From NCBI GenBank assembly GCA_020719005.1, contig DYQZ01000004.1:1-46125 (forward strand): 46,125 nucleotides of DNA, given 5' to 3'. Every line of letters begins with the position of its first letter. Positions within the stretch are counted from its first letter, which is position 1. The position numbers and the translations under genes were made by a program. The notes under the pieces are model-generated. The model ran no database searches. It was not told the origin of the DNA and worked only from the letters and a program-made list of their open reading frames with translations. Positions 21,007 to 44,019 of this stretch are shown here, piece by piece. This DNA is from Candidatus Omnitrophus sp. (GTDB lineage Bacteria > Omnitrophota > Gorgyraeia > Zapsychrales > Fredricksoniimonadaceae).

Positions 21007-21933
21007 ATGAAAAAGACATTGTTTTTAGTATGCTGCCTTGTGTATGGATGTGTCCTTTTTGTTACCTCCCTTTTTGCCCAGCAAAGTGCTGAGATCATCA
21101 ATATCAATTATAAATATAAGATCGCTTTTGCGGACCTGACCGAGAAAGATGTAAAACCCGGGGATATGGTCACTGTTGGTACATCTAATGGCGAGCAGGT
21201 TTATCTGAAAGTGGTCGAGGCGTATCCGGTCATGGTAAAGCTTATGATCGCGGATGAGCCTGAATATAAACTGACGGAGGAAACGTTCAGTCATATTGTT
21301 GTTGGCGGAAGCGTTGTTGTTGGTAACGCGGGAAAAAAAAGAATGGCAGCGCCTGTTGTGAGCATGCCTTCTGTTAAGGCTGAAGAAAAGACGGTTGATG
21401 AAGATATCGCTCATGTGGAAAGTTATTCACCTTCTTCTCTGCGTGAGACAAAGCCTGTGGAGAGGCCGCTCAAGAATGCCCCGCTTGTGGTGCCGGTGTC
21501 TGTTCCCGTCAAGGAAACGGTTGAAGCTCCTCTTGTTATGGTGCCCGCGGTTGCTGTTTCAAATGATGCTGACGTGTGTAAAAGTCGGTTGGCGACGGTG
21601 GAGAAACGGCTTGATCAGGTCATGAACAACAATGTGTCGTTGTCGGAAAATGTGACCATGCTTTTGGCAGACAAGAATGCGGTTGAGGAAAAAGTGCGGG
21701 TGAAAGAGGCTGAGGCGGTTGTCTTGAAGCAAAAACTCGATGAGGCTCTTCCTGCCCGTAGTGCACTTGAAGGGCAATTAAAAAGCGTCCAGGCGGACCT
21801 TGTGAATGCACGTTCACAAAAAGAGAGCGCGGATAAAGAGATCCAGTCCCTGAACATCAAACTTGTCGAACTTAAGAAAAAACTTGCTCGCATGGTCGAG
21901 ATCATCAACAACAATGTGAAAGTCTATGAATAA
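21007..21933 (+). CDS. Secreted two-part protein: N-terminal beta-rich domain, C-terminal coiled coil
   Basis: Signal peptide MKKTLFLVCCLVYGCVLFVTSLFAQ; N-domain IAFADLTEKDVKPGDMVTVGTSNGEQVYLKVVEAYPVMVKLM; coiled coil from about residue 190. Overlaps the next ORF by 8 nt. Confidence 0.75.
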   Translation: MKKTLFLVCCLVYGCVLFVTSLFAQQSAEIININYKYKIAFADLTEKDVKPGDMVTVGTSNGEQVYLKVVEAYPVMVKLMIADEPEYKLTEETFSHIVVGGSVVVGNAGKKRMAAPVVSMPSVKAEEKTVDEDIAHVESYSPSSLRETKPVERPLKNAPLVVPVSVPVKETVEAPLVMVPAVAVSNDADVCKSRLATVEKRLDQVMNNNVSLSENVTMLLADKNAVEEKVRVKEAEAVVLKQKLDEALPARSALEGQLKSVQADLVNARSQKESADKEIQSLNIKLVELKKKLARMVEIINNNVKVYE

Positions 21934-24900
21934 AAAATCCATTCTTCCCGGTATTCTTGCAGTTGTTTTTCTGTCATCGAATCTTATGCCGTACGGCGTG
22001 CATGCGGCGCCTCTTGATATGGTGGCGCAGGACGAGCTTTTCTTTGCCCAACAGGAACTGAAGCAGGCAAAGGACAAATTGCTTGCTAAAGAGGCGGAGC
22101 TTTCAAAACTCGTCATGGAAAAAGAAGTGGCGAAAATGAATGCTGAGACAGCGTCTCGAGAAAAGGAACTGCTTCAGGCCAAGATCGACGGCTTGCAAAA
22201 GAATATCGTTGAACGGGACCAGTCTTTGCCTAAACAGATCGAACAATCCATCGGGCCTTTGCAGAGCAGGGCGGATGAATTGAGCCAGGAATTGAAAGTG
22301 TTGCAGTTCTCCCTTGAGCAAAAGAATATCAGGCTTGCTGAAGTGGAAGCTCAAAAGCAGGGCATCGAACTTCAGATGAGAAAGACTGATGATGAGAAAC
22401 TTTTGTTGCGTGATTCGTTAAGAAGGGTCGGCGATGAACTCGACAAGCTTAAGACCAACCTTGCGAAGCGTGTTCAGGAAGAAACAGCTGTTCAGCAGGC
22501 AAAGATCGTTGAACTTGAAAGTAAGGCGTCGGCTCAAAAGACCCTAACGGATGAGAAGATCAAGCAGGCGTCGGTAGTGCTTGAGGACAAGGTCCGCAGT
22601 CTGGATCTGCAACTTAAATCAAAGGATGATGAAGCAAATGCCAAAGTAGCGGCGATCAAAGAGCAATTAGATCAAAAAATAAAGAATTTGGAAGCGGCGT
22701 TGTTGAGTGCAAAGAATGAGACGGCAGGTGCTCTTAAGAATGCGGAAGGCCTTTCCAAAGCAACGATCGAAACATTACGCCAGGAATTAGGCGCCAGGGA
22801 GGCAGATGCCCAGCGTCGCGTTGCTGAGGCTAAGGTGCCGTATGAGGAAAAGATCAAACAGCTGACCTCAAATATTGCGACGGTTAAAGAAGCGGCCCTT
22901 AAAGATGTGCAGGTGATCAAGGGTAAGTATGAGGAAAAAGTGACGGCTCTTCAGGCTGAAATGGGTAAGGCTAAGACAGACGCTGATGTTAAGGTCAAGG
23001 CGGTCAGGGAAGAGTTACAGAAAAAGATCGATGAACTCAACAATAAGATTGAACAGGATAAGACGGACGCCGCGGGTAAATTAGGCGCACAGCGTTTGGA
23101 TTATGATGGAAAATTGGCCCTTGTTAAACAGGAGACGCTCAAAGTCCAGCAGGAATTGTCTTCACGTGAGGGGATGATCGCGTCGTTGAAGCAGGAGAGG
23201 GATGCTCTTTTACTCAAGGGTGAGGATGCAAAAAAGAGCGAGGCTGTGCTTACTGCGAAGATCAGCGGGTTGCAGGATGAAATGGCGGCGCTTAAGAAGA
23301 ATGCCGAACTTCAGGTGCAGGTGGCAAAGAATGATTCAGCGTTGATCGTCGAGAAAATGAAGACAGACGCGCAGTTGGCTCAGGAGAAGATCAAGGCCGA
23401 GGCTGATAAAGCGTTGGCTAATGCGGATGGCAGGGTGGCTAAGATACAAGAAGAGCTCAACGCCTTGCGTATCGTATTGAAAGATAAGGAGACGCAGGCT
23501 CAAGTGGCTGAGAAAGAGCGTGACGCTCTTAGTGCAAAGCTGGCAACGGCGCTCTCTTCAGGTGATGCGCTCCGTAAGAACATGGAAATGGTGCAGGCTG
23601 AATTAAAAACGTTCCAGCAGTCATTGCCTCAAAAGCTTGAGGAAGGAAAAGCTCCTCTGGCAGCTGAGATAGGAATGCTGAAAGCAAAGATCACCGCTCT
23701 TGATGTTGCGGCGCGTGATGCTGATGCCAAAGCACGTTTGGATATTGAGAAGGCGGAAGCCCGGACGGCGGTCGAGGTTGCTAGGATCAAAGAGGAATCG
23801 GCTAAGGCGCTGGCTGTTGTCAAAGACGATGCCTCAAAAGCGTTAGCGTTAGCAAAAAATGATACGGTCGTGGGAGTGAAGGCGGCGAAAGAGGAGGCTG
23901 CTGCGGCTGTGGTCCTTGTCAGGAACGAGAGTGCTGGGGAAATCGCCAGGATCAAGGCGGAAGCTTCACAAATGAAAGATGCGTCTGGCGAAGAGATCCG
24001 TCTTTTAAAAGCCAAGATCGCGGAAGTGCAATCTTCTTTGCCGCGGCTTGTTGAGTTAGAGAAAACACCGTTGCAGGAAAAGATCCGGGTTCTTGAGACG
24101 GAATTACAACAGGCATTGATCGTCGCAGAAAAGACGTCAGGAGAGATAAAGTCAGGGTATGAAACAAAATTGACCGGGTTAAAAAATACCCTTGATCAGC
24201 AAAAAGTGACGTTTGAAGAACAGCTAAGGGCTGTGAAGACGCCTCTTGAGGCAGAGGTGCGTTCTTTACAGCAAAAGCTTGCGGAGATGGATGGGACGCT
24301 AAAGGTGAAAGAAGAAAAGATCGCGGCATTATCGTCTGACCGTGAGGCGCTTTTGAAAGAAAAAGAAAAGACTGCTCTTTCTTTTGCGGGTGAAAAGAAT
24401 GCATTGATGTCGGCGAAAGCAGACCTTGAAGGCTTGATCAAGGCGGCTCAGGATGAGGGTAAACAAAGCGCGCTACGTTTGAAGGAATTGTCTGATCGCA
24501 AGGCCTTTTTGGATGAGGCATTGGCTAAGGCATCGGCAGAACGTGTGAGGTTGACGACGTCGCTTGAGACTGTTCAACAGGAATTGAAGGTGGCTCGGGA
24601 GAGTGTCCCCCTCGAGGTCGCGAAGGCGGCGGATCCGTTAAAGGGAAAAATTGCGGATATTGAGGCAAAGGCAAAAGAAGAAGCGGCGCGGATGCAGATG
24701 AGCATAAGTGATCTTGCAGCGAAAATGAAGGCAATGACCACTGAGCGTGATGCTCTTTTGAAAGAAAAAGAAAAGCTGGTGGTCTTACGCGCGAATATCG
24801 AAGAGGAGCTTAAGACATTAAAGGAGACTGCGACGAAAGAGGTTGAGGCATTGCCACTAAAACTTGCTGAAGCCAGGAAACCGTTGGAAGAAAAGATCGG

Positions 24901-27900
24901 CGCACTTTCACTTAAGACGGTCTCATTGGAGGCGGCTTTAAAAGATAAAGATGCGGCACTGTTGGTCTTGAGCAAAGAACGTGAAGCGTTGACCTGGCAA
25001 CGTGCGACGCTACAGAGCGAGAAAGAAAAGCTTTCACTTGAGGCGGAGCGCAATGTTCAGACATTAAAAATGAAGCTTGATGATCTTCAGGAAGAGGGTG
25101 TTGCAAAGGCTCAGGCGGCGAAGGTTCAATTGGCATCTGTTCAGGAAGATGGCTTGAGGAAGGTAAAGGCGTCGGAAGAGGCGCTGTCCCTCCAGCAGAA
25201 GAATGCTGATGAGCAAATGAGAAAAGTGCAGGCGTCTTTGGATGCGTCGAATGCGCAGTTGAAAAAAGTGCAGGCATCGCTTGAGGCGTCTAACATTGCA
25301 TTGAAAGAAAAACAGGATTCTCTCACCGTGTTGACCGGGGAGCGTAATGTTTTGTCCGCAGAGAAAGTCAAAGCCGTTGAGTTGAAGGCATCGACGGAAG
25401 AGGCGTTAAAGAACGTGAAAGCGGAATTGGCCAAAGAGAATGCATCACTGCCGGAGAAGTTGGCACAAGTTAAAAGACCTCTTGAGGCAGAATTGGCAAA
25501 GGTGAAGGCAGAGTGGATGTCGTTGAATGAAGGGTTGAAGAATAAAGAGGCTCAGTTCAATGTTTTATCCAAAGAGCACGCGGATCTGTTGAATGAAAAA
25601 GAAAAACTTGTTGTTTCAAAAGGTGAACTGGAAGCGGCGCTCAAAGATGTAAAAGGATCTTTAATGGCAGCGGTGGCAGAGATGCCGGGGAAGATCGCGG
25701 AAGCAAAGAAGCCGTTGGAATCAAAGGCTGCCGGGCTTGAACAGGAATTGAGAAAGGTTTCAGCTCAGTTAACGTCAGCGAACGACAAGATCCAGACGCT
25801 GTTATCTCAGCAGACCAAGGTTATGCAGGAGAATGCTGCTCTTCTTGAAGCGCGTAATACGGCTGTGGCGCGTGTGGCGCAGTTAACGATTGATCAAAAA
25901 GACCAGGCTGAGGCATTGCCGGTCAAATTGGCTGAAACCAAACGACCGCTGGAAGAAAAGATACAGGACCTTGAAGAGACGGTGGCTACATCGCAAAAGA
26001 CCATTGCTGAGAAAGAGAACGCGATAAGCGCATTGGATAAAGAAAAAGCTCAGCTTATGAAGGATAAGGATTCTTTGGGTGCGGCTGTGCGAGGGGCGAA
26101 TGAAAAGATAGCGTTGTTGCAGGCTGATATCGCGCGCGCGCGTCAGGACATTGATAGCAAGAAGGCGGAAAATGCGGCGCTGTTAAAGGAACGCGACGGG
26201 CTGGAAAATGAGAAAGCCGCGACGCTGAAAGAGACAGCGGCATTTAAGAAAGAGTTTTTGGCGTTGCAGGGGCGTGCTGAAAAGATAGCGCAGGCATTTG
26301 AAGAGAAAGAAAAGGCCCTTGGCGCGACGATCAAAGAGAGAGATGGGCTTTTAAAAGATAAAGTATCTTTGGAGGCGTTACGTTCATCACTTGAAGGTCA
26401 GCTTAAGGAATCACGGGAGAAATTTGCTTCTGAAGCAGATGCTCTTCCTGAGAAATTATTAAAAGCCCAGGAACCGATCGCTTTGCAGGTTAAAGAGGCT
26501 GAGGCAAAATACACGACGGCAAGTGAAGCGTTGAAGAATAAGTCGGACGAAGCTAAGAGCCTTCAGATAAGGCTTGAAGAGATGACCAAGAAAGCGGCGA
26601 GCCTTGATAATGAACGTGCCAAATTGACGCAGGCATTGTCGGCGCTGCAGCAGGAAAAGGAAACATTGAATGCATCGATCCCGGGGCGGGTCGCGAGCGT
26701 TGAGGTGCCGCTGAAAGAAAAAGTGGAAGCGTTGCAGAAACAGCTTTCTGACATGAACAGTGCCTATAAGTCTTCTGAGACGGAAAAAGGGCGTATCTTG
26801 ACCCAGCTGGGGGCGGTCATGAAAGAGCGCGATACGTTGAACGTTGCTGTGGCTGATCTAAGCGGGCAGTTAACACAATTTAAAGGCCAGCTTGTTGAAA
26901 CACGCGAGGCCTTAAAGACAAATGAAACGCTCCTTCCGGAGAAACTTGCCTCGGCGCAGGCGGAAGCGTTAAGACCTGTCACGGATGAACTCGCGGGGGT
27001 GAAGGCCAAGTTGACGGATGTTTCAGCCCAGCTCGTGGTTAAGGCAAAAACTGTGGAAGATCTTTCAGCTGAGCGCGAGGCGCTTAAGAAACAGATCGAA
27101 GGCGTGAACGCAAGATACGGCAAGCTGGAAATGCTTCTTAAGACGCGCATGGATGAGATGCAAAAGGTGATCGGCGAAAAAGATGCCGCATTGACTAAGT
27201 TGAAAGAAGATTCTCAGGCGCGTTGGGAAAGTCGTGAGGTCGAGGTCGCAGGAGTTGCAAAGGCTAAGGATGCGTTGTTGAAAGAAAAAGAGCAGGCCTT
27301 GTCGGTCTTGGGGAAAGAGGCACAGGCGCTTAAGACGCAGTTGGATCAGGTCATTAAAGAAAAAGAAAACGCGGTTGTTGATATCCAACAGTTGAGCAGT
27401 GATAAAGCTGCGCTTGAAAAGAGTATTCCGCTCAAGGTGTCTGAGGCTCTGCGCCCTCTTGAGGCAAAAACAGCACAGATCGTCGCTGAACTTGATAAGA
27501 ATGCGGCGCTATTGGCGTCAAAAGAAAAAGAACTTTCAGCGTTGAACGGTGCGCAGGCGGCACTTCAAAAAGAATTTAAAGGGGCTCAAGAAGAGATAGC
27601 AGGGCTTTCTTTGTCATTGACGCGCGCAGGAGAAACAGCGTCAGTGACGGGTGCAAGACTTCAGGATGCTAAGAAAGAATTGAATGATCTTACGAAAGAA
27701 AAGGATGCGTTAGTAAAGAATATTGGGCAGTTGTTGGATGAGAAGAAAGGCTTGGAAGAGGCTTTAATGGCGTCGAGAAGAGAGGCGGAAAGTCTTCAGG
27801 CATCGATCCCGGAACGTCTTTCGCAGGTACAGACACCGCTCAACGTTAAATTGAGTGCGCTAGAGAAAACAACCCTTGAAAAGGACCAGGTGATCAAAGG

Positions 27901-30900
27901 GTTGGAGGCTGATCTTTCTGCGGTTGGCCAGGAATTGGCGCTTGTTAAGAAAGAATATGCGACGCTGACGGCGGAGAAAATGAAAGCGGATGCGGGAAAT
28001 CAAACGTTGGCCAAAGAACTGCAGGCGCTTAAGGGATCCATACCACAGCAGTTGGCTTCCGTCGAGAAGCCGTTGACAGTGAAGATCGCGGATGCAGAAG
28101 AGCGCGCACGCGGGATGCAGGAGATGTTGTCCCGGAAAGAGGCACTGATCAAAGATGCCGGGGCGCGGCAGGCGGCACTCTTGAAGGAAATGAATGAAGT
28201 TAAACAAGCAAAGAGTGATCTTGAGGTGTTGTTGGCGAAAGAAAGGACGGATCATGAGGCATTTGTCGCCGGTGTGCCGCAACAACTGTTGTCTGTTGAG
28301 ACGCCGCTTAAGAATGAAGTCATGCTTTTGCAGAAGAAGCTCGCAGACAATGCGTCCTTGATACATCAAAAAGAAGAAGTGTATGCCCGGCTTACAACAG
28401 AGCGGGATGGTCTTCTTAAAGATAAGAATGCGGCAGTGGAAGAAGTCAAACGTTTGTCGTTGTTGGTTGATCGTTCCAGGGAAGAGCAGAGTGCGATATC
28501 GACGGCGCTTGTGAATGCACAAAAGGCGCTCAATGATGAAAAGACTGCATTGCCTTTGCGTCTTTCGCAATTGAAAGCACAGACAGAAGCGCCATTGAAT
28601 GCCAGGCTTGCTGAATTGGATTCAACAGAAAAGGCGTTAAATGCGGCATTAAGTGAGAAGCAAAAGAATATTGTTCAGTTGTTGAGTGAGAAAGATCGTT
28701 TGTCGGCACAGTTAAAAGAAGAACAGGGTCGCGCGGCGCAGTTGAGCGGTGCGTTGGATGTCTCCAGAGCAGAAGCATCGCGTCTTAAAGAGGCTTTGCC
28801 TAAAGAGATCGAAGAAGCGCGTAGTAAAGCGCGTGATGAAGCGACACGTCCGCTTCAGGCAGAGGTGGCCCGTCTTAATACGTCACTGGTCGATCAGAAG
28901 AAGACCTTGGACCTTACGAATGAGCAGTTGAGGATCAAGGCTGAGAATGAAAAAACCGCGCTTCAGGCCCGTATCAGTGATGCGGAAAAGAGCATTCAGA
29001 CCAAAGATGAGGCCTTAAAAGCATTGGCTGTATCAAAGGACAAACTTGATGTGCAGCTTAAGGAAGCGCTGGCACAGCGTCAGCGTCAAGAAGAGGCGGC
29101 GCTGAAGGCTCAAGCACTGTTCACTGAAAGATTAAAGGCTGCTGAAACGGCTCTTGTTGAGGTCCAGAAGAAAGCAGAACTTCAACTTGGTCAGGCTCAG
29201 GAATCCGGTCGTGCTGAATTGACGAATGTGAAGGCGGCCGCGCAAAATGCACAGGCGTCTTTGTCAGGAAAGGTCACGGAACTTAGCGAGAAGATAAAGG
29301 AACAGAATAGCGTTATCAAAGAGAGAGAAGACCGGTTAACGGCACTTGATCGTCAGAGAACGGGTCTGCAGCAAGAACTAAAAACATCTCAAGACCGCGT
29401 TATTTCTCTTGAGGCGGATCTTAAGTCCGTCGGGGAGAAGCTTTCTTCTGCTGAAAAGAGTATCCCACAGCGTCTTTCCGCGCTGCGTGTTGAAGTGGCG
29501 CAGCCGTTAGAGGCAGAGATGGCCGCGTTAAAAGCAAAGACAGCTGGCGATCTGACGGCGCTTCAGGTTAAAGCGGGCGAGGATGTTAAACGCGCACAGG
29601 CACAAACAGCAGAAGTGAAAGCCTCTCTTGAGAAAGCATTGGCAGATGCCGGAGCGCGCGTGTCAGCGCTTGATCAGCAGGTTTCTGACAGGCAGGCGCA
29701 GGTCGTTCTTTTGACCAAAGAGAAAGAAGAAGTAACGCGTTCATTGGCGGGCGAACGCGCAGGTTATGCCAAACTGACAAAAGAGCATCAGGATCTCATC
29801 GAGAAAATGAAGATCGTCGAGGCCAGCGTGCCTCAAAAGATCGAGCAGTCGGTCATGGCGTCTGTTGCGGCGGCGCGTGAGCCGTTACAGAATAAGATCG
29901 CTGAATTAGAGAAGAGAACGTCTGCGATGTCAGATGCGATCGGCCAGAAAGATGTGGAATTGTCCCGTCGTGCCGAAGCATTGGCGAAGTTGGTCAAAGA
30001 ACGTGATCTGACGTCAAATGAATTGAACAGTGTTAAGGCCGAAAAGGGAAAGATCCTCGCGGATCTCATGCGCACTGAGGCGGATCTTAAGGCGACCGCC
30101 AGTGCTCTTCCAGAAAAGCTGGCAGCGGTCCGCATGGACGCAACGAAACCTCTTGAGGCGGAACTGGCAAAGACAAAACAAAAAGCGGATGAGGATGTGA
30201 AGGCTGCAATGGCTGATGCCCTTTCTAAGGTCAACGACGAGAAAGCTCGCCGTGAGGCGGAGCAGAGAACGCTGCAGGAAAAGATGGGCGTGCTTAATAA
30301 AGAACTCCTAAATGCCCAGAATGCAATGCTTGGCGTGAAGACAAGCCTTGAGGGAATAAGTCAGCAGCGGAATTCTTTGGTGAATGAAGTTGCAGCTCTA
30401 AAGAAGGAAAATACTGTATTGGCCCGGACGCTTGATGAGGTCCGCTCGGAGGGCCTTAAGGAAAAAGAAGCGGGCGGTGTGCGTATCGCGAACTTAGAGG
30501 CGCAGATGAAGGCAAAGACCGACGATCTTATGAAGCAGGTTGAGGAGCGTATTCGTCAGGCCGAGAATAAGGTTGTCGAAATGCGTCAACAGGCTGAAGA
30601 TCGTTTGGCCATGGCAAAGGCGGAAAATCAGCGTGCCGTGGAAACAGTAAGTGCAGAAGCTGTGAAGACCCGTCAGGAAGCTGAAGGGAAATTAGCGCAG
30701 TTCAATAAAGAGGCGGGGCAGAAAGAAAAAGCATTGCAGGATGAACTTTCGGCATTACGTCAGTCGCTCGACGTTCGTGTTAAAGCGCTCTCAGATGAGC
30801 TAAAGACAGGTGAGAATTCTTTTCTTGCAATGAAGCAGGAACGTGATGCGTTGTCGTTGCGTCTGAAAGAAGAACAGGCGGCTTCTTTAAAATTGAATGT

Positions 30901-33900
30901 TTCATTGAATGACGCGAAGAATGAATTGGCGCGTGTACAACAGGCGATTCCCGCCCAGGTCGCTACTGCAGTTGCGGCTGTTCGCGCTCCTCTTCAGACG
31001 GAGAATAGTACACTCAAGGATGCTTTAACGAAAGCAAAAGAGGAGCTTGCGGTAAAGCTTGAAGAGCTTAAAGACCTGAATGCTGAATTTGATGGGGTCA
31101 AGGAAGCGTTGGTCGCTTCGGAAAAAGAACGAGTGATCAGAGAGAAGCAGGGGGTCATGCTGACAGCTAAATTGTCATCGCTTAGCACCTCGATCCCTGA
31201 TCAGGTTGCATCAGCCAGAGAGCCTGTTCTTAAGGAGTTAAATACACTCAAAGAAAAGATCGTAGAGCAGACGGCGGATATGACAGAGAAACAGCGTCTT
31301 ATCGACGTACTTAGTGCGGATAAGGCGATGCTTTTAAAACAGGCGGAAGACCTGCGTCTTAAGCAGTCTGGCATGGGCCAGGAATTGCTCAGCACGCGCA
31401 CGGCGTTGAAAGCGCAGGAAGAAGATGTTGTTGTGAAGATGGCGCTTGCCAAGAAGCCTTTGGAAGAAGCACTTATTCAGGCGAAGAAAGATCAGGATAA
31501 GCTGCGTGCAGAGATAGGTTTGACCGCCGATCAGCTTCGGGCCAAGATGGCGGCACTTGATCAGTTGAATACGTCGTTGGTTGGTTTGACCAAAGAGCGT
31601 GATCTGTTGATTACTGAAAAGATGCAGTTGAATGCTCAGCTTGAGCAAATAAAGCTTAAAGCGGCCGTTGATGAAAAGAGCGCGATCGAGCGTTTGGCAC
31701 AAGCTGAGACTAATGTGCGCCAGCCCCTGGAAGCTCAAGTGGTAAAGGTCCGGAATGAGATGAGTGCCGAGATAAAAGCGCTTGAAGAAAAGAGTGGGAA
31801 AGAAGCGGAGGCGTTGCAAGCTAAGATCTCGTCGTTGGACATGGCGGCAAAGGACCTTTCAGGTCGCCTCGCGGAAAAAGAAGCGGTATTAAAAAGTTTA
31901 AGCGAGGAAAAACAGAACCTTTCTATGGGACTTGCTTCTCAGGAAAAAGCAAAGGCCTCTCTTGAAGGGAACATTGCGGCGTTAAAAAAGGAAATGGAGG
32001 CGGTGAATGCTTCTGTTGCGGAGCGTGTGGTGAAGGCCAAAGAGCCTTTGGAAAAGCATATCAAGGACCTTGAGAATCAGTTACGTGCAAGTGAGATCCT
32101 CGCCGGATCAAAGCTCAATCAGATGCAGGTCCCTCTTAAGGACAGGATCAGTTTTCTTGAAAATGAAGTTAAAACCGCGCAGGACCTGTATCAACAACAG
32201 GAAAAAATGGTAAAAGAAATGGTCGCTAAGCGCGATGAGCTCCTTAAGAACCTTGGTGAGGTCGAGCGTGACCGTCAGTCGCTTAAAGTTCAGGTCACGG
32301 GTCTGACGAATAAATTAACTGAAAGTGAGAGCGCGCTTCCTGTACGTTTAGCTCAGGCCAAGGCTCCGTCGGAGGCTAAGACCGTTGAACTGGAAAGTCA
32401 GGTCGAGAAATTGACCGCGGCACTTAAAGAAGCACTGGAAAATAAGGACAAGATGGCAGCGGAGTCGCTGAAAGAAGCGCAGGCTTTGCGTCAATCACTT
32501 GATCAGGCGGTGCGTGAGAAGACGTCTGTTGGTAATGAGCTCTCTGTTCTTAAGGCTACAGCAGAGGGGCTGTCGGTGTCCTCTGAGGAAAGAGCTCGAA
32601 GTGTAGAAGAGTTGCGTCAGAAGAATTTTGAACTGACACGTGAGCTTTCAGCGCTTCAGGGGAACAAGGCTTCGTTGGATAAGAAATTCCAGCAGACGGA
32701 TGCGGAGCTTAAAAATTTCCAGGGTTCCATCAGCAAGCGTATTGAAGAAGCCCGTCAGCCTTTGGAAGATACGCTGCGGTCTCTCGAGAAAAATTTGTTC
32801 GAGAAAGATACAGCTCTCAAGGATAAAGATGCCGAGATCATGCGCCTGACCAAAGAGCGCAATAATTTCGTTGGCAAGTTTTCTCAGGCGGAAGAACAAG
32901 GGAAGACATCATTAAGCAAAATGGCTCAGCTTGAAAGCCAGCAGGCAGCATTTGACCAGAAGATGAATGAGACCATTGCTCAGACCAGGGGGCCTCTTGA
33001 AAAACAGATCACGGACCTGACGCTTCGTTTGTCGTCGTTACAAGCTGAGCGCAAGGCGGAGACTGATGGCGTATCTGTCAAGTTGGCTGCTACGAATGCC
33101 GGTTGGGAAAAGCAGATGGCGGCTCTGAAGGCCGAGATGGAACGCATGACGGCAGCTTCCCGTTCTTCGTCGGAAGCGTTAAAGGTTTCTTATGAAGAGA
33201 AGATCGCACAGCTTAATATGCGTCTTAATGAATTGAAGGCCGATCTGGATGGCCGTGTTAAAACAGCGTCGGATGCGAGATCGGCGCAAGATGCACAGCG
33301 GGCGGCATTAAATGCGCTCAAGGAAGAGAAAGCAAAGATGTCGGCGGAGATCCTTCAATTGCGCGAGGCATTAAAAGTGAAAGAAGCTGATATGACGCTT
33401 AAGGTTTCTTCACTTAGCGCTTCCCGTCAGGATGAGATAAAAGCGGTTGAGGAAAAATGGGGCGCTTCAAAAGCAGAGATCGAAAAGACAGCGCAGGCGC
33501 TGAAGGCGCAGTTGAATGCGCAGTCTCTTGAGTTCACGCGGCAAATGCAGGCCAAAGAAATGATCCTCAAGGAGAAAGAATTGGCCGTATCTCAGATGCA
33601 GTTCAGGATCGAAGGGCTGGAGAAAGATCTTGATATGATGAAACAGGACAAGACATCTCTTGATGAAGAGAAGGCCCGTATGGAACAAACCCTCAAGGAG
33701 TCAAAGGCGGGTTCGATCGAATCCCGTCGTGTTGAGATCGACGCGGCTAAGGCACCATTGCTTGAGCAGTCGCGTCAACTTCAAAAGACGGTTGAATTGA
33801 AGGAGGAGGAGATCAAGGCTCAAAAGGCGCGCGAATCTGTTTTGATCCAGACCCGTGAAAAAATGAACGGCGAGTTCGTTCTGTTGAAGGATCAGCTGGG

Positions 33901-34285
33901 CAAACTCGAGGCACAATATGCCGAGGCCATGGCCTTATTGTCTAATGTGCAAGGGGCGGGACGCACAAACCTTGATGAGGCGCGTAAAGAATTAGAGGGG
34001 AAGATCGTCCAGATCCAGGCAGAGTCAGCACCTCTTAAAGCTCAAATAATGGAGAGGGACGCATCGATCAAAGCATTGAAAGCCTCATTAGAAGCATCAG
34101 TGAAAGAGAAAGATGTTATGAATGCCGAGGCTTTAAGGCTGAAAGAGAAAACCGCGGCATTGGAAACAGAATTGAGGTCTAAAGATAAAGCGTTCACAGC
34201 CCTTCGTCAGCAAGTTGATACGAAACAGCAGGACCTGAAGGCTGTTCAGGATGAATTGAACGGAGCGATGGAACTGGTCAAGTAG
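21926..34285 (+). CDS. Giant (4119 aa) secreted coiled-coil protein with periodic two-proline hinges
   Basis: Single uninterrupted ORF; signal peptide MNKKSILPGILAVVFLSSNLMPYGVHA|AP; continuous K/E/A/L/Q heptad-like sequence; recurrent motif such as SLPEKLAQVKRPLEAEL, ALPVKLAETKRPLEEKI, EMPGKIAEAKKPLESKA. Confidence 0.92.
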   Translation: MNKKSILPGILAVVFLSSNLMPYGVHAAPLDMVAQDELFFAQQELKQAKDKLLAKEAELSKLVMEKEVAKMNAETASREKELLQAKIDGLQKNIVERDQSLPKQIEQSIGPLQSRADELSQELKVLQFSLEQKNIRLAEVEAQKQGIELQMRKTDDEKLLLRDSLRRVGDELDKLKTNLAKRVQEETAVQQAKIVELESKASAQKTLTDEKIKQASVVLEDKVRSLDLQLKSKDDEANAKVAAIKEQLDQKIKNLEAALLSAKNETAGALKNAEGLSKATIETLRQELGAREADAQRRVAEAKVPYEEKIKQLTSNIATVKEAALKDVQVIKGKYEEKVTALQAEMGKAKTDADVKVKAVREELQKKIDELNNKIEQDKTDAAGKLGAQRLDYDGKLALVKQETLKVQQELSSREGMIASLKQERDALLLKGEDAKKSEAVLTAKISGLQDEMAALKKNAELQVQVAKNDSALIVEKMKTDAQLAQEKIKAEADKALANADGRVAKIQEELNALRIVLKDKETQAQVAEKERDALSAKLATALSSGDALRKNMEMVQAELKTFQQSLPQKLEEGKAPLAAEIGMLKAKITALDVAARDADAKARLDIEKAEARTAVEVARIKEESAKALAVVKDDASKALALAKNDTVVGVKAAKEEAAAAVVLVRNESAGEIARIKAEASQMKDASGEEIRLLKAKIAEVQSSLPRLVELEKTPLQEKIRVLETELQQALIVAEKTSGEIKSGYETKLTGLKNTLDQQKVTFEEQLRAVKTPLEAEVRSLQQKLAEMDGTLKVKEEKIAALSSDREALLKEKEKTALSFAGEKNALMSAKADLEGLIKAAQDEGKQSALRLKELSDRKAFLDEALAKASAERVRLTTSLETVQQELKVARESVPLEVAKAADPLKGKIADIEAKAKEEAARMQMSISDLAAKMKAMTTERDALLKEKEKLVVLRANIEEELKTLKETATKEVEALPLKLAEARKPLEEKIGALSLKTVSLEAALKDKDAALLVLSKEREALTWQRATLQSEKEKLSLEAERNVQTLKMKLDDLQEEGVAKAQAAKVQLASVQEDGLRKVKASEEALSLQQKNADEQMRKVQASLDASNAQLKKVQASLEASNIALKEKQDSLTVLTGERNVLSAEKVKAVELKASTEEALKNVKAELAKENASLPEKLAQVKRPLEAELAKVKAEWMSLNEGLKNKEAQFNVLSKEHADLLNEKEKLVVSKGELEAALKDVKGSLMAAVAEMPGKIAEAKKPLESKAAGLEQELRKVSAQLTSANDKIQTLLSQQTKVMQENAALLEARNTAVARVAQLTIDQKDQAEALPVKLAETKRPLEEKIQDLEETVATSQKTIAEKENAISALDKEKAQLMKDKDSLGAAVRGANEKIALLQADIARARQDIDSKKAENAALLKERDGLENEKAATLKETAAFKKEFLALQGRAEKIAQAFEEKEKALGATIKERDGLLKDKVSLEALRSSLEGQLKESREKFASEADALPEKLLKAQEPIALQVKEAEAKYTTASEALKNKSDEAKSLQIRLEEMTKKAASLDNERAKLTQALSALQQEKETLNASIPGRVASVEVPLKEKVEALQKQLSDMNSAYKSSETEKGRILTQLGAVMKERDTLNVAVADLSGQLTQFKGQLVETREALKTNETLLPEKLASAQAEALRPVTDELAGVKAKLTDVSAQLVVKAKTVEDLSAEREALKKQIEGVNARYGKLEMLLKTRMDEMQKVIGEKDAALTKLKEDSQARWESREVEVAGVAKAKDALLKEKEQALSVLGKEAQALKTQLDQVIKEKENAVVDIQQLSSDKAALEKSIPLKVSEALRPLEAKTAQIVAELDKNAALLASKEKELSALNGAQAALQKEFKGAQEEIAGLSLSLTRAGETASVTGARLQDAKKELNDLTKEKDALVKNIGQLLDEKKGLEEALMASRREAESLQASIPERLSQVQTPLNVKLSALEKTTLEKDQVIKGLEADLSAVGQELALVKKEYATLTAEKMKADAGNQTLAKELQALKGSIPQQLASVEKPLTVKIADAEERARGMQEMLSRKEALIKDAGARQAALLKEMNEVKQAKSDLEVLLAKERTDHEAFVAGVPQQLLSVETPLKNEVMLLQKKLADNASLIHQKEEVYARLTTERDGLLKDKNAAVEEVKRLSLLVDRSREEQSAISTALVNAQKALNDEKTALPLRLSQLKAQTEAPLNARLAELDSTEKALNAALSEKQKNIVQLLSEKDRLSAQLKEEQGRAAQLSGALDVSRAEASRLKEALPKEIEEARSKARDEATRPLQAEVARLNTSLVDQKKTLDLTNEQLRIKAENEKTALQARISDAEKSIQTKDEALKALAVSKDKLDVQLKEALAQRQRQEEAALKAQALFTERLKAAETALVEVQKKAELQLGQAQESGRAELTNVKAAAQNAQASLSGKVTELSEKIKEQNSVIKEREDRLTALDRQRTGLQQELKTSQDRVISLEADLKSVGEKLSSAEKSIPQRLSALRVEVAQPLEAEMAALKAKTAGDLTALQVKAGEDVKRAQAQTAEVKASLEKALADAGARVSALDQQVSDRQAQVVLLTKEKEEVTRSLAGERAGYAKLTKEHQDLIEKMKIVEASVPQKIEQSVMASVAAAREPLQNKIAELEKRTSAMSDAIGQKDVELSRRAEALAKLVKERDLTSNELNSVKAEKGKILADLMRTEADLKATASALPEKLAAVRMDATKPLEAELAKTKQKADEDVKAAMADALSKVNDEKARREAEQRTLQEKMGVLNKELLNAQNAMLGVKTSLEGISQQRNSLVNEVAALKKENTVLARTLDEVRSEGLKEKEAGGVRIANLEAQMKAKTDDLMKQVEERIRQAENKVVEMRQQAEDRLAMAKAENQRAVETVSAEAVKTRQEAEGKLAQFNKEAGQKEKALQDELSALRQSLDVRVKALSDELKTGENSFLAMKQERDALSLRLKEEQAASLKLNVSLNDAKNELARVQQAIPAQVATAVAAVRAPLQTENSTLKDALTKAKEELAVKLEELKDLNAEFDGVKEALVASEKERVIREKQGVMLTAKLSSLSTSIPDQVASAREPVLKELNTLKEKIVEQTADMTEKQRLIDVLSADKAMLLKQAEDLRLKQSGMGQELLSTRTALKAQEEDVVVKMALAKKPLEEALIQAKKDQDKLRAEIGLTADQLRAKMAALDQLNTSLVGLTKERDLLITEKMQLNAQLEQIKLKAAVDEKSAIERLAQAETNVRQPLEAQVVKVRNEMSAEIKALEEKSGKEAEALQAKISSLDMAAKDLSGRLAEKEAVLKSLSEEKQNLSMGLASQEKAKASLEGNIAALKKEMEAVNASVAERVVKAKEPLEKHIKDLENQLRASEILAGSKLNQMQVPLKDRISFLENEVKTAQDLYQQQEKMVKEMVAKRDELLKNLGEVERDRQSLKVQVTGLTNKLTESESALPVRLAQAKAPSEAKTVELESQVEKLTAALKEALENKDKMAAESLKEAQALRQSLDQAVREKTSVGNELSVLKATAEGLSVSSEERARSVEELRQKNFELTRELSALQGNKASLDKKFQQTDAELKNFQGSISKRIEEARQPLEDTLRSLEKNLFEKDTALKDKDAEIMRLTKERNNFVGKFSQAEEQGKTSLSKMAQLESQQAAFDQKMNETIAQTRGPLEKQITDLTLRLSSLQAERKAETDGVSVKLAATNAGWEKQMAALKAEMERMTAASRSSSEALKVSYEEKIAQLNMRLNELKADLDGRVKTASDARSAQDAQRAALNALKEEKAKMSAEILQLREALKVKEADMTLKVSSLSASRQDEIKAVEEKWGASKAEIEKTAQALKAQLNAQSLEFTRQMQAKEMILKEKELAVSQMQFRIEGLEKDLDMMKQDKTSLDEEKARMEQTLKESKAGSIESRRVEIDAAKAPLLEQSRQLQKTVELKEEEIKAQKARESVLIQTREKMNGEFVLLKDQLGKLEAQYAEAMALLSNVQGAGRTNLDEARKELEGKIVQIQAESAPLKAQIMERDASIKALKASLEASVKEKDVMNAEALRLKEKTAALETELRSKDKAFTALRQQVDTKQQDLKAVQDELNGAMELVK
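23759..23956 (+). repeat. Six consecutive 11-residue (hendecad) repeats within the giant ORF
   Basis: ARTAVEVARIK / EESAKALAVVK / DDASKALALAK / NDTVVGVKAAK / EEAAAAVVLVR / NESAGEIARIK. Confidence 0.8.
25223..25306 (+). repeat. 42-bp (14-codon, two-heptad) tandem duplication within the giant ORF
   Basis: KVQASLDASNAQLK / KVQASLEASNIALK. Confidence 0.85.
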
Positions 34286-34473: not shown

Positions 34474-35544
34474 ATGATCGCAGCCTATCACCATCTTTGG
34501 GGCACTGTACTTCTTTTTCGGGATCCTTTCTTTCTTGCTATGTTTTTTGTTGTTGTTTTAACGCCTCTGATGATCGTTCTTGCGCATCGTTTTAATATCC
34601 TGGATCATCCGAATGAACGTAAACTACACTCTAAGCCTGTGCCGCGTTTGGGGGGGCTGGGGATCCTGATCGCTTTTTGGATGGCCGCTTTATTTCATTT
34701 GCCCTGGAGCAATGAATTCACTTCTATTCTGATCGGCGGTTCGATCATTGCGATCATGGGGATCGTTGATGATATTCGCGGCCTTTCTTCCGTGGTGCGT
34801 CTTGGTGGACAGCTTCTGGCATCTATCATTGTGATGTCGTCGGGGCTTATTGTTTCTTTTATGCCGCATACGCTTTTGGGAACGCTCATCGCATGGCTGA
34901 TCACACTCCTTTGGATCATCGGGATCATCAATGCCTTGAATTTTATGGATGGCCTGGACGGCCTGGCTTCCGGCATGACCATGATCGCAGCCTTCTTTTT
35001 CTTTTTAATGGCAGTTTATTTACGTCAGCTTGATGTGGCGCTCTTGGGTGCTGTTCTGATGGGGAGTGCAGCGGGATTTTTGTTCTATAATTTTAAACCG
35101 GCAAAAATATATCTTGGGGATGGCGGAAGCACTTTCTTTGGTTTTATGCTGGCGTGCCTGGCACTGTACGGCGGATGGTCGAATGACGGTTTCATTGTAG
35201 CACTGGGGGTTCCGACCATTATCCTGGGGGTGCTGGTGTTTGATATGATCTATATCACGATCTCGCGTATCAAGAATGGTGAGGTGAAGACATTCCGTCA
35301 GTGGCTTGATCATACGGGCAGGGATCATTTTCATCATCGTTTATTAAGCCTGGGGTTCTCTGAAGTAGGGGCCGTGCTGTTCATTTATCTGGTGTGTTTT
35401 ATCCTGGGGCTTAACGTGTTGGTGCTTGAGCGTTTGCGTAATCCATTGGGAGTTGGTATCCAGTTCTTCAATGCCATGCTTATTTTCCTGCTCATCTTAT
35501 CCTTGATGCGGACAGGGAGGGCGTTCCTTAGTAAGAAGAAATAG
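34474..35544 (+). CDS. Undecaprenyl-phosphate N-acetylhexosamine-1-phosphate transferase (WecA/TagO-like, MraY superfamily)
   Basis: DHPNERKLHSKPVPRLGGLGI, GIINALNFMDGLDGLASG, KIYLGDGGSTFFGF and HTGRDHFHHRLLSLGFS. Confidence 0.93.
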   Translation: MIAAYHHLWGTVLLFRDPFFLAMFFVVVLTPLMIVLAHRFNILDHPNERKLHSKPVPRLGGLGILIAFWMAALFHLPWSNEFTSILIGGSIIAIMGIVDDIRGLSSVVRLGGQLLASIIVMSSGLIVSFMPHTLLGTLIAWLITLLWIIGIINALNFMDGLDGLASGMTMIAAFFFFLMAVYLRQLDVALLGAVLMGSAAGFLFYNFKPAKIYLGDGGSTFFGFMLACLALYGGWSNDGFIVALGVPTIILGVLVFDMIYITISRIKNGEVKTFRQWLDHTGRDHFHHRLLSLGFSEVGAVLFIYLVCFILGLNVLVLERLRNPLGVGIQFFNAMLIFLLILSLMRTGRAFLSKKK

Positions 35545-35551
35545 GAGTGTT

Positions 35552-36637
35552 GTGCAGATCGATCTTGTAAAACGGACATTGCGATTTCTATTGACCCAGG
35601 GGGCTATCCTCGTCGGGGTCATTATGCTTTTTTTGATCTTAAGCAGTGTGTTCTTTGTTAAGAACGCGATCCGCTGGCATTTATCCAACATTGAACAGGA
35701 TGTGATCATATTTTCACAGCAGACCGCCCGTTCCGGTGAGGTCCCTAAACGCGGGGATCTTGGATCATATACATTTTTTATTATTGGTAATGACGGAAAA
35801 TATATCCTTCCCCGTCTACCGCGAGGGGATGAACGGGAACGTCTTTGGCAGGAATATGAAACGAAATTGATCTATGAGATGCAAAAAAGGCGGGATGGCT
35901 GGAGTTATTATCCTGATGAGAAAAGTTTGAAGTGGGGCGAGGGGCGTTATGTCATTCGTTATGTTTATCTTGAGAAACAGGGCTGGATCGTGGCCGCCGA
36001 AGGAGTTCTTCCAGGGTCGATCAGCCTGCTCGAAGGATTTTTAACAGCAAAGTTGTTCTTGGGGCTCTTTTTAATGTTGGCTCTTGCGATGGGACTTATG
36101 CTTTTTAATGCATTCTGGCATTTTAACAAAGTGATGCGCGCAGTGGCCCGGTCCCATGAAAATAATTTTATTGCCGTTCCATCATCGACGAGTGCTGAAG
36201 AAGTATCTCCGTTCGTGCAGGCTCCCGACAGGTCTTCATCGGGGGGTGGTATCCATAACAGGTCTTCGATGGTATTGCCCAAACACGTGATGGAGCCCGC
36301 GGTCGCTGTTCAACCGGAGCAAAAACCACAGGCTGTTGGAAGGGCGTTGGATCTGCTGCGAACATCGTCTGCACAAAAAAGTTTTTCATCCAGTGAATAT
36401 CCCGAGATCTCCGAACGGCATCAAGAGCAAGAAGCCCCATCGGAGAAAGAACGCGTACAGCATCCTAAAGAAAGATCCCAGGGGACGCGTTTAATGGATA
36501 CTTCTTTTATGCCCAGGCCCCAGACATCTGCCGCAGGGCCGCGGTCATTTGACGGCTTAGGTGAGGTTACGGTTGACACAACACAGATCAAGTCGCCTCT
36601 GCTTCGCAAGGCGATCGAACAGATCAGGGGGGAATAG
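35552..36637 (+). CDS. Membrane protein with extracytoplasmic sensor-like loop and low-complexity cytoplasmic tail
   Basis: GTG start. Two hydrophobic segments (LLTQGAILVGVIMLFLILSSVFFV; LFLGLFLMLALAMGLMLF) flank a ~140-aa loop; the polar tail ends DTTQIKSPLLRKAIEQIRGE. Confidence 0.65.
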   Translation: MQIDLVKRTLRFLLTQGAILVGVIMLFLILSSVFFVKNAIRWHLSNIEQDVIIFSQQTARSGEVPKRGDLGSYTFFIIGNDGKYILPRLPRGDERERLWQEYETKLIYEMQKRRDGWSYYPDEKSLKWGEGRYVIRYVYLEKQGWIVAAEGVLPGSISLLEGFLTAKLFLGLFLMLALAMGLMLFNAFWHFNKVMRAVARSHENNFIAVPSSTSAEEVSPFVQAPDRSSSGGGIHNRSSMVLPKHVMEPAVAVQPEQKPQAVGRALDLLRTSSAQKSFSSSEYPEISERHQEQEAPSEKERVQHPKERSQGTRLMDTSFMPRPQTSAAGPRSFDGLGEVTVDTTQIKSPLLRKAIEQIRGE

Positions 36638-36641
36638 AGGC

Positions 36642-37466
36642 GTGTATACCAAGCACTGGTCTCTTTTTGAAAAACCTTTTGAACTGACGCCGGACCCGAA
36701 GTACGTCTATTATTCCAAGGCGCATGAAGAGGCTCTCTTGAGGCTTGTTTATACGGTGCGGGATGCCAAGGGCGCGATGCTGTTGACAGGCGGATATGGT
36801 TGCGGCAAAACGATCCTCAGCCGCGTGTTCTTGAATGAGCTCGTGAGTGCATCCAAGTATGAAGTAGCGCTCATTACAAACCCGCGTTATTCGGCCAAGG
36901 AGCTTTTGATCGAGATCATCTATCAGCTCGGCGGAGAGCGTCACGACTATAAATCCAAAGGCGAGCTCTTGCATCTTTTTAATGAGACCATTTATCGGAA
37001 CTTGGAAAATCATAAAGAAACGGTTATAGTAATAGATGAGGCGCAGGCGATCGAGGACTTAGAGACGTTCGAGGAGCTTAGGCTTTTGCTCAATTTTCAG
37101 CAGAACAACCGCTTTTTGATCACGCTGATATTGATCGGTCAACCCGAACTTCGTGCACGTCTTAAGAGTTTACCGCAACTAAAACAACGCTTGATGATCG
37201 AGTATCACCTCAATGCGTTGGATGAACGTGATTGTTATCAGTATATTGATCATCGATTGCGTGTGGCAGGGGCCAAGCATGAGATATTTGAGGCGCGGGC
37301 AAAGAAAATGATCTACAAGATCTCGGCGGGTGTGCCGCGCGTGATCAATGGTTTGGCGGATATCGCATTACTCATCGGGTATTCCGAGAATAAAAAGAGC
37401 ATTGACGAAGATTTCATTAAACGGGTGGCTGAGAATAGCGAGATGTCAACGTCATGGTCAGACTGA
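36642..37466 (+). CDS. ExeA-like AAA ATPase (type often found in exopolysaccharide loci)
   Basis: GTG start VYTKHWSLFEKPFELTPDPKYVYYSKAHEEAL, Walker A TGGYGCGKTILSR and TVIVIDEAQAIEDLETFEELRLLLNF. Confidence 0.88.
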   Translation: MYTKHWSLFEKPFELTPDPKYVYYSKAHEEALLRLVYTVRDAKGAMLLTGGYGCGKTILSRVFLNELVSASKYEVALITNPRYSAKELLIEIIYQLGGERHDYKSKGELLHLFNETIYRNLENHKETVIVIDEAQAIEDLETFEELRLLLNFQQNNRFLITLILIGQPELRARLKSLPQLKQRLMIEYHLNALDERDCYQYIDHRLRVAGAKHEIFEARAKKMIYKISAGVPRVINGLADIALLIGYSENKKSIDEDFIKRVAENSEMSTSWSD

Positions 37467-38581
37467 TCCAGATCATTAAAAAGAACTTGAAGAAAAGCGC
37501 CTCATCAGATCCTCTTGAGGGAAGCGTTCTTTTGCCTGAGACAGCGTTGCCTCGTCTTGAGGCTGAATATCGTCCTCTTGTTCCATCAGATCCATATCCG
37601 CTGCCTAAAGATAATCCATATCGTCGCAAAGAAGGGGGTTTTTCTGAACCTTCGTATGTCTCGGGTGAGAAACTCAAAGCGCTTTATCTGGAATTGCATG
37701 CTTCAGTTCAGTTCGCATTGACCGGCATCATTCATCGGGAAAAGATCGAGGATCTGATCGGACGTATCGTTGATATGTTCATCAATGAGCCGTATAACGA
37801 CCTTCTTTTGCTGGCGTATTCTTTTTCACGCCAGCATTATTTATCGGCGCATATTGCCAATGATGTGATCCTGACAACCGGGTTTGCCCGTAGCCTTGGT
37901 TTCTCGAGGGAGGATATGTGTGACATCGCCTTGTGTGCGTTCACGCATGACCTTGGTATGGTCGGGTCTGAGGGTGCTTCTCAAAAAGGGCAGCAGCTTT
38001 CCTCAGATGATATCAATGATATAAAACAACATCCGTCGCGTGCGGCAGAGATCGTCCGTCCTGTTTTTTCAGAGAAGATCGCCTCCGTTGTTCTTGATGT
38101 GCATGAACGTGAGAACGGGCAGGGATATCCCCGCGGGATACCGGGTGTGCGTATCCACCTTTGGGCAAAGATCATTGCGGTATGTGATGCATTTGAGGCG
38201 CTGGTCCATCCGCGCGTTTTTCGTGCGTCTTACAGTCCTTATGAGGCGATCAAGATCATCATCAAGAAGAAAGATATTCTTTTCGATGACGTCGTTGTAA
38301 GAAGGTTCATCGATTTCTTGTCTATTTATCCGGTCGGTGCTTTTGGATATCTCAATAGCGGCGAGATCGCTATGGTGCTCGGATCATCTCCAGGCTTCCC
38401 GACGCGTCCCAAGGTCAGGGTCCTCGTCAATGAGAACCGTGAGATCGAAGAACAGGGGCGAGTGATCGACCTAGCGGAAAAAGATTTTGTTTATATTGCA
38501 AGTGTTCTGGAGCCCGAAAAAGAAAAAGAGATCCTTCATTTTCTTAATCCCAGAGGTCAGATGAATGTGGATGAGGTCTAA
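37454..38581 (+). CDS. HD-GYP-like phosphohydrolase
   Basis: AFTHDLGMVG, QHPSRAAEIVRPVF, VHERENGQGYPRGIPG and VCDAFEALVHPRVFRASYSPYEAI. Confidence 0.85.
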   Translation: MVRLIQIIKKNLKKSASSDPLEGSVLLPETALPRLEAEYRPLVPSDPYPLPKDNPYRRKEGGFSEPSYVSGEKLKALYLELHASVQFALTGIIHREKIEDLIGRIVDMFINEPYNDLLLLAYSFSRQHYLSAHIANDVILTTGFARSLGFSREDMCDIALCAFTHDLGMVGSEGASQKGQQLSSDDINDIKQHPSRAAEIVRPVFSEKIASVVLDVHERENGQGYPRGIPGVRIHLWAKIIAVCDAFEALVHPRVFRASYSPYEAIKIIIKKKDILFDDVVVRRFIDFLSIYPVGAFGYLNSGEIAMVLGSSPGFPTRPKVRVLVNENREIEEQGRVIDLAEKDFVYIASVLEPEKEKEILHFLNPRGQMNVDEV

Positions 38582-38585
38582 GGAT

Positions 38586-41647: not shown

Positions 41648-41648
41648 C

Positions 41649-44017: not shown

Positions 44018-44019
44018 CG

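Follow-up and report, generated by a model that had tools for sequence, protein, structure and literature searches.

The window analysed here, 46,125 nucleotides of a contig from an uncultured Candidatus Omnitrophus, contains a giant gene whose product is probably a secreted, essentially continuous and phase-locked coiled coil, assembled from proline cassettes and heptads. The spacing rule of the proline pairs (hinges), the continuity of the hydrophobic seam, the conservation and the gene order are all directly observed. The product (4119 aa) carries a signal peptide, as the N-termini of its relatives also appear to do, and lacks Cys; it probably forms a single very long coiled-coil rod. A Pfam search of all 4119 aa found no domain, and sequence searches of Pfam, NCBIfam and the PDB returned generic coil matches only. 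The C-terminal motif LKAVQDELNGAMELVK is near-identical in G029, G009 and G028, and a looser version is found in other families. Relatives occur in several Omnitrophota genera and families, with total lengths from 260 aa to 5134 aa in the largest, and syntenic copies of the gene are present in other genera. The coordinates of all features are collected in the table.

Features of the giant gene and its surroundings (window coordinates)
Feature	Position	Strand	Basis or remark
Partner gene, 308 aa	21007..21933	+	fold match, adjacency, fusion in G070
Giant coiled-coil gene	21926..34285	+	one open frame, 4119 aa
Predicted N-terminal signal peptide, ~residues 1-28 (...YGVHA/APLD)	21926..22009	+	sequence; without lipobox Cys
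Hinge 1, P102/P111, in-pair 9	22229..22258	+	alignment; kept in G028
Hinges P895/904, P977/986; gap 82	24608..24883	+	
Hinges P1176/1185, P1254/1263, P1332/1341; gaps 78, 78	25451..25948	+	AlphaFold2 segment
Hinges P1508/1517, P1586/1595, P1671/1684 (13-type); gaps 78, 85	26447..26977	+	
Hinges P1835/1844, P1962/1971, P2040/2049, P2118/2127; gaps 127 (78+49), 78, 78	27428..28306	+	
Hinges P2210/2223 (13-type), P2292/2309 (17-type); gap 82	28553..28852	+	
Hinges P2514/2527 (13), P2636/2653 (17), P2729/2742 (13); gaps 122, 93	29465..30151	+	
Hinges P3009/3022 (13), P3091/3100; gap 82	30950..31225	+	
Half-hinges, second proline only (P3178, P3267, P3374, P3403), and full hinge P3472/3481	31457..32368	+	
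Conserved C-terminal motif ...LKAVQDELNGAMELVK-stop	34223..34282	+	G029, G009, G028 comparison
Exopolysaccharide operon	34474..45240	+	profile matches; some names by eye
Putative inner-membrane protein with extracytoplasmic segment	35552..36637	+	homologues in G062, G069

The window protein contains 23 proline pairs, with first prolines at residues 102, 568, 706, 895, 977, 1176, 1254, 1332, 1508, 1586, 1671 and 1835 (hinges 1-12) and 1962, 2040, 2118, 2210, 2292, 2514, 2636, 2729, 3009, 3091 and 3472 (hinges 13-23). The two prolines lie 9 residues apart in sixteen pairs, 13 in five and 17 in two. The 11 adjacent pair-to-pair gaps shorter than 96 aa measure 82, 78, 78, 78, 85, 78, 78, 92, 82, 93 and 82, which are excesses over 78 of 4, 0, 0, 0, 7, 0, 0, 14, 4, 15 and 4. 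A first-pass annotation had proposed spacings of 78 + 4a + 7b, and our recount reproduced every distance that it gave between complete hinges. Its value of 85 for 3167-3252 holds if two half-hinges are taken as different types; measured from proline to proline (3178-3267) the distance is 89, or 78+11, and thus on the lattice. Such a lattice is falsifiable only at excesses of 17 or less, where 1, 2, 3, 5, 6, 9, 10, 13 and 17 are forbidden. The 11 gaps above 100 aa are uninformative, because every integer above 17 can be written as 4a+7b, and the application of the formula to all gaps was rejected as vacuous. The non-zero excesses fall on allowed values in 7/7 cases (p ~(8/17)^7 = 0.005 against a uniform excess, post hoc and for one protein), and separate scoring of in-pair and linker indels gives 11/11 (p ~2.5e-4, likewise post hoc and for one protein).

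The relatives provide an independent test, and they sharpen the rule to 29+7n, in which whole heptads are added to a cassette of 29 aa and a 4-residue stutter appears now and then. The in-pair distance is 9 in 148/156 hinges, and among complete hinges across the order 101 of the 124 linkers of 20-86 aa equal 20+7n. Three of these 124 (67, 67 and 70) are off the lattice and fit no simple version of it, and such linkers become more numerous once half-hinges are counted; linkers of 49 and 78 are on the lattice only if one or two proline-less cassettes are assumed. With one count per protein and length, 18/25 linkers below 100 aa equal 20+7n (p ~1e-10 against 1/7), and the figure is 50/115 for linkers below 130 aa with half-hinges included (p = 4e-14). 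Spacings of 29, 50 (41+9), 71, 78, 85, 92 and 127 are all seen, 78 being 29 plus seven heptads, and G081, G046 and G047 contain long runs at 29-aa spacing. At one orthologous indel the spacing of 131 in the window exceeds the 82 of G028 by 49, or seven heptads, and alignment places an orthologue of the P3403-P3481 segment at the matching position in G028. G121, from another order of the same class, matches with a quantum of 91 aa and stands outside the order-wide counts. The original formula describes the window gaps below 96 aa, but the lattice is better expressed as 29h + 7n (+4s). Neither in the window nor in the relatives did off-lattice gaps reach the frequency of +4 or +7 ones. The proposal that indels survive only when core phase is kept is supported, with a few true exceptions in relatives (the off-lattice linkers named above).

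In 33 exact modules the core columns (-1, 3, 6, 10, 14, 17, 21, ... 77) run uninterrupted across the hinge, with P0 at e and P9 at c in 131/131 hinges each. The hinge block thus reads as a proline-flanked hendecad, and its 13 and 17 variants as a pentadecad and a nonadecad. A seven-state register HMM in which every shift type was free, and which may settle in local optima, assigned all 145 phase shifts of the window protein to stutters; in four relatives nearly all shifts were +4 or +1 (= 4+4), whereas shuffled sequences gave a mixed spectrum and a score roughly tenfold lower. Stutters number about two per hinge and concentrate on either side of the proline pair, between -4 and -1 and again at +7 and +8. 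The term hinge misleads insofar as the seam is not broken there. LIVMF residues occupy 60-65% of a/d positions and ~10% of the others, the global hydrophobic period is 3.55-3.56 in four relatives, and 36/40 segments of 100 aa exceed the 95% null for coiled-coil power. Continuity of the seam through nearly the full length, as the earlier reading had it, is well supported by these patterns. The associated phrase “register-critical” is apt for local phase but not for total length, which varies widely among the relatives. The postulated ancestral module of ~78 aa is borne out by a 78-column core profile that is nearly the same across different families of the order; this comparison used non-overlapping modules, as MAFFT slid overlapping ones by whole modules.

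Core composition is I+V 32%, L 28% and K 12% at a, and L 46% at d, which fits the beta-branched a and Leu d of a parallel dimer. Attractive in-register g-e' charge pairing exceeded that of shuffled sequences in G000, G062, G069 and G079, and weakly in G029; this parallel signal was not found in G003 and G068, two of the seven proteins tested. Judged from these sequence patterns, the giant would most likely be a parallel, in-register homodimer. We consider it unlikely that the chain reverses at the proline pairs to form antiparallel hairpins, in the manner of SMC arms or of an accordion, with the spacing reflecting matched arm lengths. The AlphaFold2 monomer speaks for such a fold, as its helix is broken at the middle of the three modelled hinges (EMPGK) and it is most like SMC-type antiparallel hairpins (TM ~0.6), and so does the core layout of -1, 3, 6, 10 with P0/P9, which is symmetric about the hinge centre. 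However, the helix runs through hinges 1 and 3 of the same model, and monomer predictions often fold long coils back, burying the core. Moreover, runs at 29-aa spacing would leave arms of 20 aa, the single hydrophobic stripe present does not let a helix pair with both neighbours, and a turn of fixed length accounts less well than a coil for in-pair distances of 13 and 17.

Regular spacing could also be a by-product of repeats that duplicate and recombine unequally while in phase, free of selection on coiled-coil phase. Module identities of up to 95% in G003 and up to 79% in G029 indicate that duplication happens; the modules of the window protein, however, are ~21% identical to each other and nonetheless exactly spaced. 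Tandem DNA repeats were rejected as the cause of this spacing, as TRF found none in the window gene. In-pair distances change in exact steps of 4 across seven diverged hinges, and shifts outside the hinges are also stutters only, so that we regard this origin as rather improbable. Even less credence is given to the view that independent coiled-coil rods are joined by proline pairs acting as flexible linkers or processing sites, with incidental spacing: proline pairs are unusual in coils and pLDDT falls at the hinges, but linkers would need neither in-pair distances of 9, 13 or 17 nor an invariant e/c placement.

The phase-locked coil that we favour probably grew through the duplication of one ancestral unit, in which a proline cassette of 29 residues is combined with whole heptads (seven for the 78-aa form). 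Because the seam runs straight through the hendecad, each cassette would be a point of local unwinding and kinking and not a loop, with the 13 and 17 hinges as the next stutter steps; the rod may bend at these points. Since the seam must stay phased, the surviving length changes would be heptads, 4-residue stutters and 29-residue cassettes. The signal peptide and the neighbouring genes are what point to an envelope location, where the protein would most likely serve as a fibre or tether of up to ~0.6 µm with a possible kink every ~11.6 nm. Somewhat more tentatively, it may represent a new class of envelope fibre, a coil encoded by one gene and reaching 5,000 residues, in which 29+7n modules carry proline-flanked hendecads as kink or strain points set at even intervals and neutral to phase; length and flexibility would then evolve by module addition with the core never lost. 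The family also offers a natural experiment in coiled-coil mechanics, in which many indels of diverged proteins follow simple arithmetic, so that evolution shows how well each insertion length is tolerated, a reading open to laboratory test.

Among the closest known systems are heptad coils interrupted by stutters, with hendecad and pentadecad segments, reportedly treated by Brown, Cohen and Parry in 1996 and by Gruber and Lupas in 2003, and also by Hartmann et al. in 2016 (PMC4786415). The classic tolerated discontinuities are insertions of 3 and 4 residues, of which the former strain the coil, while insertions of 2 or 6 break it; consecutive stutters produce 11/3, 15/4 and 19/5 periodicities in blocks of 11, 15 and 19 (PMC4786415). 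The giant shares with these proteins heptads interrupted by 4-residue stutters, but differs in its paired stutters at a conserved proline cassette and in tens of repeats with quantised spacing over thousands of residues. It resembles SMC/Rad50 ATPases (TIGR02168) in its long coil, with an NCBIfam E of 2.5e-45 over coil segments and a monomer model similar to SMC arm fragments. This assignment was rejected, given a score of 154.7 against a cut-off of 567 and the signal peptide; a search of the giant for Walker A and the SGG signature found neither. A trimeric autotransporter adhesin was dismissed (no Pfam domain, and a C-terminus of helical coil sequence), as was a crescentin or intermediate-filament-like protein (signal peptide, 4119 aa, no Pfam match). 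Within the same phylum, the very large ORFs described in Velamenicoccia, of unknown role, carry transmembrane helices or adhesin-like domains (PMC10066038), whereas the window giant consists entirely of coiled coil; the main text of that paper nowhere uses the word “coiled”. No published precedent for the design was found in the literature searched, which was covered in part. Very large ORFs abound in Omnitrophota, most of them without an explanation; one giant secreted family can be named among them and linked to an exopolysaccharide locus as well as to a partner protein.

The giant probably works with this FlgT-like partner beside the exopolysaccharide export machinery, as gene order suggests. 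The 3' end of the partner gene shares 8 bases with the start of the giant gene, the two adjoin in several genomes, and in G070 partner domain and coil are fused in one chain (hhalign E 4e-16); for G121, where the N-terminus matches the partner domain weakly (14% probability), no second fusion is claimed. The partner comprises a signal peptide, a small beta domain, a disordered linker and a C-terminal coiled coil. The best PDB fold match of its model is the flagellar T/H-ring protein FlgT (3w1e, E 6.7e-4), with the LPHT ring (8z5n) also among the top matches; the FlgT match is weak and confined to the beta domain. Unlike FlgT, the partner has the linker and coil in addition, and its locus is of the exopolysaccharide and not the flagellar kind. 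We rejected it as a true FlgT, as it has no Pfam FlgT match, shows fold likeness only and adjoins exopolysaccharide genes. Homologues of the putative inner-membrane protein lie immediately 3' of the giant in G062 and G069. The operon encodes a GT4 transferase, an XrtA-type ATPase, an HD domain protein, a Wza-like export protein and a Wzc-like kinase, together with an O-antigen polymerase-like protein and a Wzm/Wzt-like transporter (the polymerase-like and Wzt-like names were assigned by eye). The locus resembles XrtA/PEP-CTERM-type ones in that XrtA-associated models match three of its products, the ATPase, the export protein and the tyrosine kinase; the XrtA-specific matches are all below the model cut-offs, and the giant is in no such model. 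A weak match to Rod_CreS was seen in a single homologue of the partner protein.

The giant ORF carries a signal peptide, and A, L, E, K and Q make up ~60% of its composition; no cysteine occurs in its 4119 residues, and a Pfam search of it found no domain. Its 23 proline pairs, or hinges (first proline P0, second usually P9), have in-pair distances of 9 (16 pairs), 13 (five) and 17 (two). The first-pass annotation had proposed a hinge spacing of 78 + 4a + 7b residues; every complete-hinge spacing that it listed was reproduced on recount, and all 11 pair-to-pair gaps below 96 residues equal 78 plus 0, 4, 7, 14 or 15. The proposed spacing holds, with a limit left unstated there: any integer above 17 can be written as 4a + 7b, so the lattice is uninformative for long gaps. 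The window protein by itself gives the lattice modest support (p ~0.005, falling to ~2.5e-4 if indels within pairs and those in linkers are scored as separate events).

The spacing rule is made strong by relatives. Syntenic relatives were found via the upstream partner gene, and further members via a module profile; those that carry a name are MAGs of Candidatus Omnitrophota, which makes this very probably the phylum of the window as well. A giant follows the partner in G029 (3730 aa), G003 (a copy at the contig end), G028, G009, G062 (3426 aa), G069 (3913 aa), G068 (5134 aa), G060, G059 and others; the profile added G079, G081, G043, G046, G047 and others. In a set of 18 sequences, 148 hinges have an in-pair distance of 9, five of 13, two of 17 and one of 20. 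Among the complete hinges of this set, the 13- and 17-residue forms all belong to the window giant, within residues 1671–3022 (at 1671, 2210, 2292, 2514, 2636, 2729 and 3009). Linkers, measured from the second proline to the next first proline between complete hinges over a range of 20–86 residues (n = 124), have lengths of 20 (27 cases), 41 (2), 49 (13), 62 (6), 67 (2), 69 (63), 70 (1), 73 (1), 76 (2), 78 (5), 80 (1) and 83 (1). All except 67 and 70 equal 20 + 7n, 20 + 7n plus 4, or 20 + 7n plus one or two 29-residue cassettes, and the simplest rule is a proline-bearing cassette of 29 residues plus whole heptads. When each length is counted once per protein, the 20 + 7n class is enriched below 100 residues (p ~1e-10) and, with half-hinges (second proline only) included, below 130 residues (p = 4e-14), values that overstate the precision because the null of uniform residues mod 7 is crude and members of one lineage are non-independent. 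In some relatives (loci L056, L057, L098, L102, L103) the cassette repeats in long series to which hardly any heptads, or none, have been added. In G121, from another order of the class, a 2681-aa coil-rich protein has prolines 91 and 100/109 residues apart, not 78; this may be a quantum of its own (91 = 13 heptads).

The core seam is kept by the hinge. When 33 exact modules were stacked, hydrophobic columns fell at −1, 3, 6, 10, 14, 17, 21, 24, 28, 35, 38, 45, 49, 52, 59, 63, 66, 70, 73 and 77; they continue through P0 and P9, so that 78 resolves into 8 heptads and 2 hendecads. A register model restricted to stutters (4-residue phase shifts) assigned all 131 hinges the same phase, P0 to e and P9 to c, with about one stutter on either side. 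With all shift types free, the window protein gave 145 shifts, exclusively +4, and four relatives fitted singly gave +4 or +1 (equal to two stutters) with a single exception; for a shuffled sequence the shift types were mixed and the score was lower by a factor of about ten. Positions −1 to 10 of the hinge make up a hendecad, which is lengthened to 15 and 19 residues in the 13 and 17 hinges, and these blocks match the 11/3, 15/4, 19/5 stutter series known for coiled coils (PMC4786415). Three expected core columns are polar (31, K; 42, R/Y/K; 56, K) and are possible determinants of register or strand number; their usual polarity is conserved between families.

The main rival is that the chain folds back at the hinges as an SMC-type hairpin. 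In an AlphaFold2 model of a three-hinge segment (nine-row alignment, mean pLDDT 90) the helix runs through hinges 1 and 3 and is broken at hinge 2; most of the top-ranked PDB matches of the model are hairpins of the SMC type. Both the break and the hairpin likeness are probably artefacts of modelling a monomer. A parallel dimer would be favoured by core composition, with I/V frequent at a, along with K, and L at d, and by attractive g–e′ pairing in five of seven proteins, weak in one of the five.

Modules within the window protein are ~21% identical, and a search of its DNA found no tandem repeat. Those of G003 reach 95% identity, so the family grows by duplication. That old, diverged copies still follow the phase rule points to selection behind it. 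A proline-to-proline distance of 131 residues in the window is 82 in the positional orthologue in G028, and this difference of 49 residues, or 7 heptads, shows the rule kept here too.

Four parts make up the 308-aa partner: signal peptide, small β domain with a match to FlgT, disordered linker and coiled coil. One 542-aa chain in G070 combines this β domain with a coil, and such a natural fusion argues that partner and giant act jointly. The giants have a C-terminal motif in common. Few stretches outside the hinges are as well conserved as the last ~17 residues, which terminate the protein in close relatives and suggest a docking end. We infer, for location and function alike, that the giant is a putative envelope fibre or tether. 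Exopolysaccharide genes lie downstream of it in the window, and homologues of the apparent inner-membrane protein come after the giant in G062 and G069. Among the XrtA/PEP-CTERM-like matches, only TIGR01007 (polysaccharide tyrosine autokinase) scored above its cut-off.

Features of the window and of two related loci
Feature	Position	Strand	Remark
Giant coiled-coil ORF, 4119 aa	window 21926-34285	+	whole finding within one ORF
Polar core columns 31, 42, 56	window 25451-25948		also in relatives
LKAVQDELxGAMELVK	window 34223-34282		also in relatives
Apparent inner-membrane protein	window 35552-36637		
XrtA/PEP-CTERM-like ATPase, export protein, tyrosine kinase	window 36561-37466 and 38565-41647		
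Fusion of the partner's β domain and a coil	G070, L064:970-2598		
Coil-rich protein	G121, L104:5907-13949		
Cryptochrome/photolyase-like protein; anaerobic ribonucleotide reductase-like protein	window 13382-14470 and 15594-17723		recognized by eye
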